A DNA stretch of 64,000 bases from Succinispira mobilis DSM 6222 (lineage in GTDB: Bacteria; Bacillota; Negativicutes; Acidaminococcales; Succinispiraceae): assembly GCF_000384135.1 (NCBI RefSeq), contig NZ_KB913028.1, forward strand, positions 1,701,351 through 1,765,350, in the 5' to 3' direction. Both the position numbers and the translations under genes were made by a program. This document shows positions 18,246-63,664 of this stretch, piece by piece (position 1 is the first letter of the stretch; each line of letters opens with the position of its first letter). The notes under the pieces are model-generated. The model was given only the letters and a program-made list of their open reading frames with translations, was not told the origin of the DNA and ran no database searches.

Positions 18246-20075
18246 TTATTCAACGGTTACGCTTTTAGCTAAATTTCTTGGTTTATCAACGTCACATTCT
18301 CTAGCTACTGCTGCATAATATGCAAAAATTTGCAATGGCAACACCGAAAGAATTGGTGCCGTATATTTATCTGCTTTTGGTATAAATATAGTATGATCTA
18401 CATATTTAGAAATACTATCATCCCCAGCTAAAGCAATTCCTAGAACTTCAGCATCACGGGCTTTAACTTCCTTAATGTTACTTAAAGTTTTTTCATATAC
18501 ATCATGTTGAGTTGCTAGCACAATTACAGCAACACCTTCTACGATTAATGCTAAAGTTCCATGCTTTAGTTCTCCTGCTGCATAAGCTTCGGCATGAATA
18601 TATGATATTTCTTTTAATTTTAATGAGCCTTCTAAAGCTACAGCATAGTCTAGTGACCGTCCTAAGAAGAACATATCCTTAGCTTCTTTATAGCGATATG
18701 CGTGTTCTTTTATATTAGTCACATCTTTTAATAACTCATCTAACTGTTCTGGTAAAATATGTAAAGCATGCACTAATTCTTTACTTCGTTCCGAACTTAA
18801 TACATTTTTAATATTCCCCATGTAAATTGCCAACATTAACATTACTGCCAGTTGTGTTGTATAGGCTTTAGTAGAAGCAACAGCAATCTCTGGTCCTGCA
18901 TAAGTATAAATAACTTGATCAGCTTCACGAGCAATTGAAGAGCCTACAACATTTGTTACTGCCAGCGTCCTAGCCCCCAGGCGTTTAGCCTCTTTCAAAG
19001 CCGCTAAAGTATCACTAGTTTCTCCTGATTGGCTAATTACAATAGTCAAAGTGCTTTCATCAACAAGAGGTTTGCGATAGCGAAATTCTGAAGCAATATC
19101 AACCTCAACTGGAATTTTAGCAATCTGTTCAATATAGTATTTACCAACTATTCCGGCATGATATGCTGTACCGCAAGCAATAATAAAGATTTTTTTTATA
19201 TTATCTAAATCATCTTTTACCCAATTCAATTCATTAAAGATTGTTGTAGATTCGTCTTTAGCAATTCTAGAGCTCATTGTTGCTCTTACCGCTTGTGGTT
19301 GCTCATAAATTTCTTTGAGCATAAAGTGGTCATAGCCACCTTTTTCTGCAGCTTCAGCATCCCAATATACTTCAAAAACTTTTTTACTAATTGGAACACC
19401 ATCGCGATCTTCTACCCAAACACTATCTTTAGTAACAACCGCAAATTCACCATCACTTAAGATATAGTTTTTGCGCGTATAATTTATAATCGCTGGAATA
19501 TCCGAAGCAATGAAATTCTCACCTTCACCTAAACCAATAACCAAAGGATTGTCTTTTTTAGTGCAAATCAGCTTATCAGGAGCATCCGCACACATAAATA
19601 CCAAAGAATACGAGCCTTCAATTATTTTTAAAACTTTTTTTACGGTCTGTTCAAAATCTCCATTATAGAGTTCAGCCATCAAATGCACTACAACTTCTGT
19701 ATCAGTTTCTGATAAAAAAACATGCCCTTTAGCAATTAAATCTTCTTTAATTACCAAATAATTTTCAATTATTCCATTATGTACCACTGCAAATTTCCCA
19801 CTTGCATCGGCATGTGGATGACTATTTTGATCAGAAGGACGACCATGTGTAGCCCATCTAGTATGCCCAATACCAATCGTCCCTGTGGGAACATGTGCCC
19901 CTATTTTATCGCGCAAACGATCCAATCGGCCAACACATTTTTCTATATTAATTCTTTTACCATCAAAAACTGCTATCCCCGCTGAATCATAACCCCGATA
20001 TTCTAATTTACTCATTCCATCTACTAAAAAAGGGGTAGCTTCATTAAATCCGATATAACCAACAATCCCACACAT
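18246..20075 (-). CDS. glmS: Glutamine--fructose-6-phosphate aminotransferase (isomerizing)
   Basis: A 609-residue full-length GlmS, the first step of UDP-GlcNAc synthesis: fructose-6-P plus glutamine gives glucosamine-6-P. Cys2 (MCGIVGYIG) is the glutaminase nucleophile. GHTRWATHGRPSDQNSHPH lies in the glutaminase domain, followed by two SIS sugar-isomerase domains (ISQSGETSDTLAALKEAK). The C-terminus DKPRNLAKSVTVE is canonical. AGGAGG precedes the ATG. Expression is expected to be feedback-controlled by the glmS ribozyme in its leader (20118-20236). It lies downstream of glmM, with a terminator between. Confidence 0.97.
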   Translation of the reverse strand: MCGIVGYIGFNEATPFLVDGMSKLEYRGYDSAGIAVFDGKRINIEKCVGRLDRLRDKIGAHVPTGTIGIGHTRWATHGRPSDQNSHPHADASGKFAVVHNGIIENYLVIKEDLIAKGHVFLSETDTEVVVHLMAELYNGDFEQTVKKVLKIIEGSYSLVFMCADAPDKLICTKKDNPLVIGLGEGENFIASDIPAIINYTRKNYILSDGEFAVVTKDSVWVEDRDGVPISKKVFEVYWDAEAAEKGGYDHFMLKEIYEQPQAVRATMSSRIAKDESTTIFNELNWVKDDLDNIKKIFIIACGTAYHAGIVGKYYIEQIAKIPVEVDIASEFRYRKPLVDESTLTIVISQSGETSDTLAALKEAKRLGARTLAVTNVVGSSIAREADQVIYTYAGPEIAVASTKAYTTQLAVMLMLAIYMGNIKNVLSSERSKELVHALHILPEQLDELLKDVTNIKEHAYRYKEAKDMFFLGRSLDYAVALEGSLKLKEISYIHAEAYAAGELKHGTLALIVEGVAVIVLATQHDVYEKTLSNIKEVKARDAEVLGIALAGDDSISKYVDHTIFIPKADKYTAPILSVLPLQIFAYYAAVARECDVDKPRNLAKSVTVE

Positions 20076-20117
20076 ATACTTGTATTCCTCCTAGTTTTTT
20101 CTGCCTACTAATAAGTT

Positions 20118-20236
20118 TTTTGTACTAAAGTCACCTTTAGGCTTTAAACTTATCTATCGTTGATAGGCCAACGGAAGGCACCCGCTGAATTTTCGATAAA
20201 CCTTCACCTCGTCTACTTTTTGCAAGTACAAGCGCT
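20118..20236 (-). promoter_or_regulatory. glmS ribozyme (glucosamine-6-phosphate riboswitch)
   Basis: The minus strand carries the hallmark segments in order: AGCGC at the cleavage site (scission predicted between 20236 and 20235), GTAGACGAGG, GGTTTATCGA, ATTCAGCGGGTGCCTTCCG, then a P3.1-like arm and AAGGTGACTTTAGTAC near the 3' end. These match the conserved core of Bacillus/Clostridium glmS ribozymes. GlcN6P promotes self-cleavage of the mRNA and so lowers glmS expression. It ends about 40 bases upstream of the glmS start. Confidence 0.93.
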
Positions 20237-20277
20237 TTTATCCCTTTCACTCCCTTCGCAAATTTTAGTTCAACTTA

Positions 20278-47913: not shown

Positions 47914-47987
47914 TGAGCATGACTTGAAAATCCTCCTTTGATCGCTTTCACAACTTTATCATAAAGGATTTTTCAAGATCATGCTCA
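47914..47987. repeat. 74-bp imperfect inverted repeat
   Basis: The ends TGAGCATGA and TCATGCTCA are complementary. Inner blocks CTTGAAAATCC/GGATTTTTCAAG and CCTTTGAT/ATCATAAAGG also pair, leaving a small loop. It carries no coding sequence. It lies in the 270-bp gap between the tRNA terminator and the EAL gene. It could be a miniature transposable element, an IS relic or a structured RNA; nothing decides this here. Confidence 0.6.
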
Positions 47988-59015: not shown

Positions 59016-60695
59016 TTGAGAAGTGATGAAGTTAAATTAGGCCCCGGAAGAGCACCCCATCGTTCTTTATTCTACGCAATGGGCTATTCAAAGGATGATC
59101 TTAGTAAACCATTAATCGGTGTAGTAAATGCGCAAAATGAGATTATCCCTGGACATGTGCATTTAAATGATATTGCTCAAGCTGTAAAACACGGAATTTT
59201 AGCTAATGGTGGTACTCCTATTGAATTTCCGGCAATTGGAATCTGCGACGGGATTGCAATGGGCCATTCTGGTATGAAATATCCTCTAGCTAGCCGCGAA
59301 CTAATTGCAGATAGTATCGAAGCGGTTACAAATGGTCATAAGTTTGACGCCTTAGTCCTTATCCCTAACTGCGATAAAATAGTTCCTGGTATGCTAATGG
59401 CCGCAGCACGTTTAAATATTCCCGCTATCGTAGTTAGCGGCGGGCCCATGTTAGCAGGTAAATTCCAAGGCAACGATGTTAGCTTAAGTACAGTATTTGA
59501 AGGCGCTGGTAAATTCGCCAACAATCAAATGTCTGCTAGTGAATTAGAAGAACTAGAACAATCAGCCTGTCCTGGTTGTGGTTCTTGTTCTGGCATGTTT
59601 ACCGCCAATACAATGAATTGTTTAACTGAAGCACTAGGTATGGGTTTACCTGGTAATGGAACTATTCCTGCCGCATATCAAGGTGCGCGACTCAATCTTG
59701 CTAAACAAGCTGGTAAACAAATTATGTATTTGGTTAACAACAATATCTGTACTCGTGATATTCTTACTCAAGCCGCTTTTGAAAATGCAATAACTGTTGA
59801 TATGGCTATTGGTGGTTCTTCCAATACCGTATTACACCTACCAGCTATTGCTCACGAAGCCGGTATTGAATTGCCCTTAGAACTTTTTAATAAGATAAGT
59901 GCTCGCACACCTTATCTTACAAAACTCAGTCCTGCGCCTAAAGCTTTCCACATTCAAGATTTAAATGAAGCCGGCGGAATTTATGCTGTAATGACAGAGT
60001 TAAATAAAAAACAGTTGCTAAATTTAACAGCTAAAACTGTAACAGGCTACACCATTGGTGAGTTGTTGCCTAATTACGAAATTCGCCGTCCCGATGTTAT
60101 TAAAACTATCGATAAACCTCATAGTTTAACTGGCGGGATAGCTATTTTATCAGGCAATTTAGCCCCAGATTGCGCTGTAGTTAAAGAAAGTGCTGTAGCA
60201 CCAGAAATGCTAATTCACAAAGGACCTGCTAAAGTATATGATTCGGAGGAAGAAGCAATAGAAGCCATTTTAGGTAATAAAATCGTAAAAGGTGATGTCG
60301 TAGTTATTCGCTACGAAGGTCCAAAAGGCGGACCAGGGATGCGCGAAATGTTAAATCCTACATCTGTTCTAGCTGGCATGGGTCTTGATAAAGACGTTGC
60401 CTTGATAACTGATGGACGTTTCTCAGGTGCAACTCGTGGTGCTTGCATCGGTCATGTATCACCCGAAGCACGAGAAGGTGGCCCAATCGGCTTAATCAAA
60501 AACGGAGACACTATTTCCATTAATATCCCTGAGCGTAAATTGGAAGTATTACTTTCAGAGGCAGAACTAAGTCTGCGTAAACAAAACTGGCTAAAACCAC
60601 CAGCAAAAGTTAAAACTGGCTATTTGGCAAGATATGCTAGTTTGGTAACTTCAGCCAATACTGGCGCAGTAATGAAAACTCCCGACAACGATTAA
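59016..60695 (+). CDS. ilvD: Dihydroxy-acid dehydratase
   Basis: A 559-residue IlvD that makes 2-oxoisovalerate and 2-oxo-3-methylvalerate in valine/isoleucine synthesis. Fe-S cysteines lie in [12 protein letters not shown] and the [17 protein letters not shown] cluster. [15 protein letters not shown], the GGPGMREML loop and [11 protein letters not shown] near the C-terminus are diagnostic. The start is TTG after AGAAGG; the protein begins [17 protein letters not shown], the expected family start. It is a single gene here, followed by two hairpins. Confidence 0.97.
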
Positions 60696-60704
60696 CTTTT
60701 CTGT

Positions 60705-60757
60705 AAATGACACTACTTGTTTGATTTATTTTATCGGTTAAACAGTAGTGTCATTTT
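60705..60757 (+). terminator. ilvD terminator
   Basis: AAATGACACTACT (60705-60717) pairs with AGTAGTGTCATTT (60744-60756), with further GTTT/AAAC pairing inside; the last arm ends in TTTT. Confidence 0.8.
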
Positions 60758-60767
60758 AGTTTAAAAC

Positions 60768-60796
60768 AAAAACTATACTTCAGTATAGTTTTTTTC
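60768..60796 (+). terminator. Second hairpin after ilvD
   Basis: AAACTATACT and AGTATAGTTT arms with a 2-base loop are followed by a T-rich tract (to 60796). It shields the following leader-peptide unit from ilvD transcription. Confidence 0.82.
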
Positions 60797-60851
60797 TATT
60801 TAAAGATCGTGTACAATACAATTGTAGCAAGCTACAAAAAGGAGGTAATTA

Positions 60852-60905
60852 ATGGAAGTGAATTTGTTGCTACTAAGTTGTTTGGCTAGTACTAAATTAG
60901 ATTGA
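60852..60905 (+). CDS. Leucine-rich leader peptide (17 residues)
   Basis: An ATG preceded by AAGGAGG at ideal spacing opens an 18-codon frame encoding MEVNLLLLSCLASTKLD. Four consecutive leucine codons (TTG TTG CTA CTA) follow Val-Asn, and two more leucines come later. Tandem codons for a regulating amino acid next to a strong ribosome site are the hallmark of transcription-attenuation leader peptides of leucine/branched-chain operons. The short distance after ilvD is suggestive, but the next gene is a MalT/LuxR-type regulator. Coding is inferred from pattern, not homology. Confidence 0.55.
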   Translation: MEVNLLLLSCLASTKLD

Positions 60906-61198
60906 AACGTTACTGACGTCTGCAACTCGTGTGTTGCCTAGCTAGGTTGAAAGCTTAAGTTATTTAGTTAACTATCAGGTATTAGCAAACAAACAGATGG
61001 AAAACAACAAGTCATTGGTAATTGGTATTCGGGTTTTCTTTTAGTTAAGTAAAGTCGACAGTCGATTATCGAATCAATTGATTACAATTTTTAGTATCCT
61101 AAATCCTAGTAACTCGGGGGTGAACTTGAGTAGTTGAGAAATTACCAAGGTAGACTATAGTTAACTATATTAAAGTATTAAGAATCGATTCCTTTTCC
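60906..61198 (+). other. Long untranslated region between leader peptide and regulator gene
   Basis: About 290 bases without a usable ORF. It contains short pairing options: GCAAC/GTTGC hairpin (60922-60937), the palindrome CCTAGCTAGG (60937-60946), and alternative pairing of leader codons GGCTAG (60884-60889) with CTAGCT (60939-60944). Such mutually exclusive pairings suit an attenuator, although the region is longer than usual. No T-box or known riboswitch core was recognised. Confidence 0.45.
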
Positions 61199-61305
61199 AA
61201 AACAGAAGAGGCAAGAAAGTAAAACATTATACGCATCTTTTCCTTAGGGTTTGATATAAAGCGTATGTGTAAGTTTACTTATACTTGTTCTCTTCTGTTT
61301 TATTA
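61199..61305 (+). terminator. Long hairpin terminator/attenuator before the LuxR-type gene
   Basis: AAAACAGAAGAG (61199-61210) pairs perfectly with CTCTTCTGTTTT (61290-61301). Inside, CAAG/CTTG, AAGTAAA/TTTACTT and ATACGC/GCGTAT blocks also pair, giving a stem of about 100 nt. TTTTATTATT follows. It ends 65 bp before the regulator start codon. Confidence 0.7.
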
Positions 61306-61369
61306 TTAGCAGGATTAAATACTTTCAGCTAGAATATTATAATAAGAGCATTGGGAAGAGGTGATAAAA

Positions 61370-63664
61370 ATGTCTACCAAAAACTCCGTTTCTTGTGCCT
61401 TTAATTATAAACTTCTCAATATTTTAGAACATGATTATTCTTTAAACAGTCTACAGTATTTAGAAATAATTTTGCCCAAAAACAGCTGTAATTTTTTATA
61501 TTATGACTGCCGTAGCGACAATTTGGATTCAATTTGGTATAAATTATTATTACAATTCAGACCTTTTGCCCCGCAAATTATAACCCGAATGCTTTCCCGC
61601 TACTTTCCCAGAGATATCTTAGAAATCACAAATACCATTAAATTTATTTTACAGCTAAATTGGCATAAAAGAACCTACATTATTCTTGACAACGCCCATT
61701 TACTCTTTCACAATAATTCAAATTTAATAGATTTTTTCTATTTTTTATTAAAAGAAAATTTGCCTAATTTACATATTTTACTAATTACTAATTCTAATCA
61801 CCCTATCCTAGATTTGAACAAGGTAAAAACGCATCCCAAAACTTCCTTGCTTAAACTTTTTTCTAGCCAATTTTCATTAAAAATCCCTTCTACTTCTTTA
61901 CTAAATAATCTAACTAAGCCAGAATATAATTTTTGCCTAGAAGTGTGCTCCTTAGATTCTTTTAGCTTCAAAGATGCATTATTTATAAGTTCTCTAGGCT
62001 CTCCAGACAAGTATATTAAACGATTATTACTGTTAAATATTCTACTATATAATTCTTGCAATAATACCTATACTTTTTCTAACAACATTTTAGATGAACT
62101 TCGTCAAAGATTTTCCCAGCTAGATTCTAAAACCCAAAAAAGTATTTATTTAAAGTTAGGTAAATGCAGTATCCAAAATGGAGATTATCACCTAGCAGCT
62201 AATTTTTATTATATTATTAAAGCAAAAGAAGAGCTGTTTACTTGTCTACACTTAGCTAGTCCAAAAGATTTTTTCAAGTTTAACCGCCAAAACTTAATTA
62301 TGTATTTTTCTTTTTTAACTTATTTTGCTTCGATAAAAGCACTGGCTCTTAACCTTGTTTATGCTCGTTATCTCCTCCAACAGCTCCAAATACAAGATTT
62401 CAAGGAACTAATTAAAAATATTGAACCACAAATAAAAAAACTTAAAAGGTTAAAAATTCGACGAAAACTTCTGAGCAAGTTGTTAAACCTAAAAATCATC
62501 GCAGATTTTCCCAATATAACCAACCAAAAAAAATCCTTATTTAAACTGCAATATCTACAACAGTATCAATTAGAAAAATGGGAAAATTGGTATTGGAGCA
62601 TCCCAGAGATGATAAGTTCTCTACTCAATCCACTCCACCTGTCTTTTGCCTTTCATCTCGATAATTTGAAAAACTGCTTTAATTATTATAATAACTTTAA
62701 CAGTAATTATTTTATTGGTATCGATTTACTTTTAGTAGCTGAGCAAAATTACTATCAGAATAACCTTTCTATGTCCCTTAGCAACTCTTATAAAGCCTTG
62801 ACCCTGGCTGACTCAAATTCTAATATTAGTTTAAAACTAATGATTTATTTTTTAATTAGTAAAATTACTATTGCTCAAGGTGATAACCAGCATTTTTCGC
62901 TAATTCAAGAAAAAATTTTAGCTTTAAGAAGCCTTCAGGTCAATTCAGCCCTAGAACACATTTTCGCCTTTATCGACCTTGGTTTAAACAATTTATTGAA
63001 AGGTAAAAACTCATTCATTGAAAACTGGCTAGAAGCCCCTCAGCTTTTAAATAGCAATATTTATCCAGTTTGTAAATCCTACTTTTTAACTCAATATTTA
63101 TTTTATCTTTTGCGAAAATCCGACTTTAAAACATTAATTAATACTTATCAAGAAAGTGAAAACTCTCTAACTAACAACACTTCTCCAATTCTAAATATCT
63201 ATAATTATTTATTTTTGGCAATTGCCTATAACCAACTTGCGGAATTCTCTAGATCTAATAATTTTTTCAGAAAATCATTGGACCTAGCTGTAAAAGCAGA
63301 AATAATCATGCCTTTCATCGAAAATTTTTCTTACTTAGAACATTTTTTGCAAAAAGTTAAGGCCGAAAAAATTTCAGATTTCGCTTATCAAAATTTTTTA
63401 GAAAAAGTAACACCAAGCTACAAGTCCAATGCCAATAAAATTTTTCTTTCTCAACCACCTCCTGATTTAACTATTCTTACCAGTCGTGAAAAAGAAATAG
63501 CTTTACTTACGGCCTCTGGTTTATCAAATAGCGATATCGCTAACCAACTTTTTATTGCTGAAATTACCGTCAAAAAGGCTTTGCAAAATATTTTTCGCAA
63601 ACTACAGGTGCAAAATCGTCTAAGTTTGGCATTATTGTTGAAAAAAACAAACCCTAACAGCTAA
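61370..63664 (+). CDS. MalT-like LuxR-family transcriptional regulator with degenerate ATPase
   Basis: A 764-residue protein built like MalT/STAND regulators. The N-terminal NTPase-like region is followed by winged-helix and TPR-like helices through about residue 680, and a C-terminal LuxR HTH (LTSREKEIALLTASGLSNSDIANQLFIAEITVKKAL in pieces, then LQVQNRLSLALLLK). A Walker B-like TYIILDNAHLLF is present near residue 107, and YYDCRSDNLDSIWYKLL matches the MalT segment after the P-loop. No G-x-x-x-x-G-K-T/S occurs in the first 60 residues. ATG 61370 follows GAGGTGAT. Targets and ligand unknown. Confidence 0.82.
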   Translation: MSTKNSVSCAFNYKLLNILEHDYSLNSLQYLEIILPKNSCNFLYYDCRSDNLDSIWYKLLLQFRPFAPQIITRMLSRYFPRDILEITNTIKFILQLNWHKRTYIILDNAHLLFHNNSNLIDFFYFLLKENLPNLHILLITNSNHPILDLNKVKTHPKTSLLKLFSSQFSLKIPSTSLLNNLTKPEYNFCLEVCSLDSFSFKDALFISSLGSPDKYIKRLLLLNILLYNSCNNTYTFSNNILDELRQRFSQLDSKTQKSIYLKLGKCSIQNGDYHLAANFYYIIKAKEELFTCLHLASPKDFFKFNRQNLIMYFSFLTYFASIKALALNLVYARYLLQQLQIQDFKELIKNIEPQIKKLKRLKIRRKLLSKLLNLKIIADFPNITNQKKSLFKLQYLQQYQLEKWENWYWSIPEMISSLLNPLHLSFAFHLDNLKNCFNYYNNFNSNYFIGIDLLLVAEQNYYQNNLSMSLSNSYKALTLADSNSNISLKLMIYFLISKITIAQGDNQHFSLIQEKILALRSLQVNSALEHIFAFIDLGLNNLLKGKNSFIENWLEAPQLLNSNIYPVCKSYFLTQYLFYLLRKSDFKTLINTYQESENSLTNNTSPILNIYNYLFLAIAYNQLAEFSRSNNFFRKSLDLAVKAEIIMPFIENFSYLEHFLQKVKAEKISDFAYQNFLEKVTPSYKSNANKIFLSQPPPDLTILTSREKEIALLTASGLSNSDIANQLFIAEITVKKALQNIFRKLQVQNRLSLALLLKKTNPNS

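Follow-up and report, generated by a model that had tools for sequence, protein, structure and literature searches.

A candidate short transcript with a leucine-rich mini-ORF between ilvD and a MalT-like regulator gene in Succinispira mobilis

Is a short leucine-rich reading frame followed by a terminator-like hairpin, found between ilvD and the gene for a LuxR-type regulator in Succinispira mobilis DSM 6222, an attenuator that senses leucine? An earlier note had read the arrangement as a leucine-responsive attenuator of a global activator or as an independent structured RNA. The genome is a single contig of 2.09 Mb, and positions given here are those of the window, the whole stretch of 64,000 nucleotides that was analysed. 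Our analysis indicates that a leucine attenuator is unlikely. We tentatively prefer, at a little under an even chance, a short separate transcript that carries the leucine-rich mini-ORF and stops at a terminator, the regulator having a transcript of its own. The case also calls for caution in general, in that a leucine run and a hairpin are not sufficient to make an attenuator.

ilvD ends at 60695 and the ATG of the regulator is at 61370. The spacer measures 665 nt, and its AT content is below that of most clean gaps nearby. Read along the forward strand, on which all features of the spacer lie apart from the strandless palindrome, it contains the palindrome, a Shine-Dalgarno (SD) sequence, the mini-ORF, the hairpin and a promoter-like site in that order. 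ilvD itself is followed by two terminator-like hairpins, one at 60705-60756 with perfect 13-bp arms and the tail TTTTAGTTT, and one at 60768-60797 with 12-bp arms and a T7 tail. The position next to ilvD, to which attention had been drawn, is real but carries little weight, because these two hairpins close ilvD before the start of the leader. Two overlapping TACAAT hexamers that resemble a -10 box (60812-60822), recognised in the sequence and by a consensus scan, are possibly a weak promoter of the leader transcript; their -35 region is poor, with at most 3 of 6 matches. The palindrome TTGTAGC-AA-GCTACAA (7-2-7; 60822-60837) overlaps the presumed start of this transcript. A search for copies showed that it is the sole perfect one in the genome, and it may be a repressor operator or a 5' hairpin. 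When a regulon of the palindrome was searched for in the genome, only near-background sites with two mismatches were found.

The mini-ORF MEVNLLLLSCLASTKLD spans 60852-60905. Six of its 17 residues are leucine, and four of these are encoded in tandem (TTG TTG CTA CTA, 60864-60875). The SD sequence AGGAGGT (60840-60846) lies 5-6 nt ahead of the ATG at 60852, or 6 nt when counted from AGGAGG (60840-60845); it matches the quality of real gene starts in the window and its spacing is ideal, and translation of the frame is predicted on this basis. In the intergenic DNA of the window (12.3 kb), no other short ORF opens with ATG behind AGGAGG at ideal spacing; the one further ATG case behind this motif in the window is a frame of 8 codons at 47920, whose spacing is 12 nt wide. 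Across the genome, an SD followed by ATG and four YTR codons has two matches, the second of which is out of frame (the frame was read by eye), and an in-frame run of four TTA/TTG/CTA/CTG codons behind such an SD and ATG is found only in the mini-ORF. The probability of a run of at least four leucine codons in 16 codons is about 0.002 for one ORF of such length and composition, and its true significance is weaker and modest, because the finding was chosen by eye among many oddities. The run uses mid-frequency codons and avoids TTA, the commonest.

The mini-ORF is followed by an untranslated stretch of 293 nt (60906-61198) and then by a long imperfect hairpin at 61199-61301, with 40 pairs, a perfect outer 12 bp and the U-rich tail TTTTATTATT. 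Its minimum free energy is about -36 kcal/mol, with z from -5.8 to -6.5, and none of 100-200 shuffles was as good. Roughly a dozen hairpins in the window are equally strong for their GC, several of them at gene ends, and the 64-kb window is the whole background of this comparison. The U-rich tail resembles those of the gene-end hairpins. A strict terminator scan does not list the hairpin because its stem is long and imperfect. The predicted fold makes it a probable intrinsic terminator (z about -6), standing before a structural gene as in an attenuator. The strong AGGAGG, the 17-residue frame with its four leucine codons, the some 290 untranslated bases and the terminator-like hairpin of about 100 nt before the regulator are thus all present as the earlier note had described them.

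Two further promoter-like sites were found. The site at 61315-61343 (TTAAAT-17-TATAAT, consensus scan) has a perfect -10 box at 61338-61343 and an acceptable spacing, and in DNA of similar composition such a match has a probability of about 0.02 per 85 nt. The SD and ATG of the regulator sit 3' of it, and a start from this site would give the regulator a 5' UTR some 20 nt long. Judged by its sequence, it is probably the regulator's own promoter. The other site, TTGAGA-16-TATAGT at 61134-61161, has 10 of 12 consensus positions. It is a better match to the sigma-70 consensus than the leader's own site, and it lies upstream of the hairpin and inside the proposed leader unit.

From these features we infer a leader unit that is transcribed, translated and terminated separately from the regulator. 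The presumed start lies near 60820-60830, at or under the palindrome, which would possibly serve as an operator. The transcript would carry the 17-codon leucine-rich ORF, which would be well translated, and it would end at the hairpin at 61199-61301 acting as an intrinsic terminator. The regulator would be transcribed mainly from the promoter at 61315-61343, and the hairpin would insulate the leader unit from it, with minor read-through possible. A new start between ilvD and 61301 is suggested because two terminator-like hairpins close ilvD and a third stands at 61301. A separate unit is also favoured by a strong SD at ideal spacing, which the window seldom shows except at real gene starts, and by a hairpin that is strong (z about -6) and whose U-rich tail resembles those at gene ends. 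Further support comes from the perfect TATAAT below the hairpin, the lack of a ribosome-position switch in the folding model described below, and the T-boxes on the leu/ilv genes and leuS. The weak leader promoter, and the better match at 61134-61161 inside the unit, count against it. Selection on the mini-ORF or the RNA is unproved because no homologue appeared in any set searched, and the separate transcript leaves the leucine run unexplained.

The stretch might also have no regulatory function, the mini-ORF being a chance frame in a spacer and the hairpin a reserve terminator that catches leaky transcription from ilvD. We regard this as doubtful, although it ranks second among the readings, and the structure of the middle region argues for it. 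The DNA between ORF and hairpin folds like its shuffles (60906-61195, z = 0.09), and a rod-like hairpin at 61080-61182 is no better (z = +0.34). A long-range domain at 60820-61085, which in the predicted fold would pair the leader start region with 61077-61085, is mildly stabler than shuffles (z = -2.2), as is a small hairpin at 61000-61090 (z = -2.3). The fold of the whole leader reaches z = -3.1, and its low energy is largely due to the terminal hairpin. The idea of an independent structured RNA therefore survives in part: independence fits better than an attenuator does, but the RNA is not highly structured. The GC content of 60906-61198 is 34%, higher than that of most clean intergenic gaps nearby. 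The same region contains three near-identical copies of TTTAGTTAACTA with a palindromic core (60963-60974, 61040-61051 and 61156-61167), which are possibly protein sites, or chance in AT-rich DNA.

The failure to find conservation points the same way, towards a lack of function. Among 62 other genomes, related to this one at the level of the order and no closer, no sequence credibly matches the leader DNA, and a DNA search of plasmids and phages gave nothing of note. A degenerate pattern of the mini-ORF peptide matched once in the GTDB contigs, at the start of a 118-aa Mesobacillus protein; this belongs to an unrelated gene and was rejected as a leader-peptide homologue. None of the 29 regulator relatives whose upstream DNA was examined has such a leucine-rich mini-ORF, neighbours being judged by ORF positions only. 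Comparable hairpins recur within the window, and the finding was picked by eye from the whole of it. Against a lack of function stand the rarity in the window of an AGGAGGT ideally spaced to an ATG outside genes, and the length of the spacer together with its AT content, which is lower than in most clean gaps nearby. Two other origins of the stretch were rejected. Decayed coding sequence was discounted because a Pfam search with all six frames, read through, produced only a single match at E = 0.11. The stretch is also single copy in the genome, which is inconsistent with a multi-copy element or MITE.

In a leucine attenuator, a ribosome stalled at TTG-TTG-CTA-CTA would free an antiterminator and polymerase would pass the hairpin at 61199-61301. 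The improbable leucine run of mid-frequency codons, the strong SD and the terminator-like hairpin ahead of a gene all fit this mechanism, and there is a Gram-positive precedent. In Staphylococcus aureus, ilvD is controlled by a leucine-rich attenuator peptide of 26 aa, with isoleucine and leucine codons, that is encoded ahead of the gene; the peptide is conserved in staphylococci and its terminator lies 52 nt past its stop (PMC5794164). The present ORF shares with it a Gram-positive lineage (Firmicutes, broadly defined), a short leucine-rich frame with a ribosome binding site, a terminator-like hairpin and a nearby ilvD, but its place is after ilvD and the ilvD terminators, and conservation was not found. 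E. coli leuL likewise has a short ORF, four tandem leucine codons and a downstream hairpin with a U-rich tail. It controls leuA, whereas the next gene here is a regulator and not a gene of the leucine pathway. The LEU element and the ilvB leader peptides of actinobacteria are a further comparison (PMC1262725). LEU is a conserved pseudoknot in which the leucine codons pair with the leuA SD; no such arrangement was seen here, in a comparison that did not include a systematic pseudoknot search.

Folding argues against leucine attenuation. In our model, the ribosome is a mask on the 5' part of the RNA, and the pairing of the 5' arm of the terminator is read just before the 3' arm is made. The controls were E. 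coli leu (L054, from NC_000913.3) and E. coli his (L055). In the E. coli leu leader, upstream pairing of the 5' arm was 0.61 with the ribosome on the leucine codons and 0.00 with the ribosome at the stop. In the his leader, it reached 0.81 at the control codons compared with about 0 in free RNA, and the stop position was not separated; because hisL was reproduced only in part, the model is a partial guide. In the candidate leader, pairing was 0.50 at the leucine codons and 0.50 at the stop, that is, no ribosome-position switch was found. The best upstream duplex for the 5' arm of the terminator was at chance level, with 69% of shuffles equally good or better. The "mutually exclusive pairing options" of the earlier note are thus what shuffled sequence also offers, consistent with z = 0.09 for the region. 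The ORF stop is 293 nt from the hairpin; for the two E. coli leaders, the same calculation gives 22 nt (leu) and 64 nt (his). This distance alone would be compatible with attenuation, and in the predicted folds no intervening element bridges the gap.

The genome also appears to sense leucine by other means. The RF00230 covariance model finds 12 T-boxes in it. Among the genes they precede are leuS (L040), ilvB (L049) and ilvN-ilvC, downstream of which lie a leuA-type gene and a leuC-like ORF (L047, L052); ileS, valS, tyrS and serA-like genes have T-boxes as well. NCBIfam models matched leuS, ilvN, ilvC and ilvB, with the frames of ilvB and leuS cut off at the locus end, and the other target genes were named from sequence by eye. 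T-box leaders are the amino-acid-sensing type that this organism uses for leuS, ilvB and ilvNC-leuA; the present leader differs in having an ORF and no T-box match. The leader itself was rejected as a T-box, given no match in it and 12 elsewhere, and as 6S RNA, which the genome encodes at another place. Rfam scans at gathering and permissive thresholds matched no family in the leader. A second kind of leucine sensing, by a leader peptide ahead of a regulator, would be unusual here, though possible. Were the leader to sense leucine, a regulator and not an enzyme operon would be tied to amino-acid supply, by a mechanism otherwise seemingly unused by the lineage.

Leucine attenuation of the regulator therefore does not hold up well, in view of the chance-level antiterminator, the absent ribosome-position effect, the 293-nt distance, the T-boxes and the promoter-like site below the hairpin, and the 29 homologous regulators examined have no such mini-ORF upstream. 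We consider it improbable, and quite improbable in the specific form of a leucine-sensing peptide that controls a regulator, and does so from unusually far ahead of the terminator, in a bacterium that otherwise senses amino acids through T-boxes. Attenuation by another signal (translation inhibition, or a protein or RNA ligand) of a transcript that starts from the promoter at 61134 or 60820 and meets a conditional terminator in the hairpin would suit the 10/12 site upstream of the hairpin and the slightly above-chance domain at 60820-61085 that pairs the leader start with 61077-61085, but it is very improbable given no Rfam match, no above-chance antiterminator and the good promoter-like site that follows the hairpin.

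The product of the downstream gene (61370-63664, 764 aa) is a LAL/MalT-like LuxR-type regulator by profile match and alignment. It has a C-terminal GerE HTH (PF00196, E 2.6e-15) and aligns with LAL relatives of about 830 aa in the class. In a profile search of 380 genomes of the class, 41 matched at E <= 1e-30, some only in the C-terminal half; peptide patterns confirmed no relatives in GTDB and IMG/VR contigs. The N-terminal P-loop (GYGKTT) is degenerate, with DYSLNS in its place, whereas the aligned relatives have GYGKT (24/25) or GFGKT (1/25). About 30-35 residues that include the conserved EGW motif are also missing; the 764-codon frame is open and the GerE HTH is intact. No other full-length copy was found in the genome. 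The regulator may have been freed from ATP control or may be on the way to decay. The term "global activator" is doubtful for a degenerate LAL protein that has lost its P-loop.

Other RNA elements of the genome deserve mention. T-box matches (L039 1501-1707 and L050 1501-1777) are also found ahead of a transporter-like gene and of an ATP-binding cassette gene, and these targets could reveal the amino acids transported. A glmS ribozyme (20101-20247, reverse strand, 90.8 bits) lies directly upstream of a glmS-like gene at 18246-20075.
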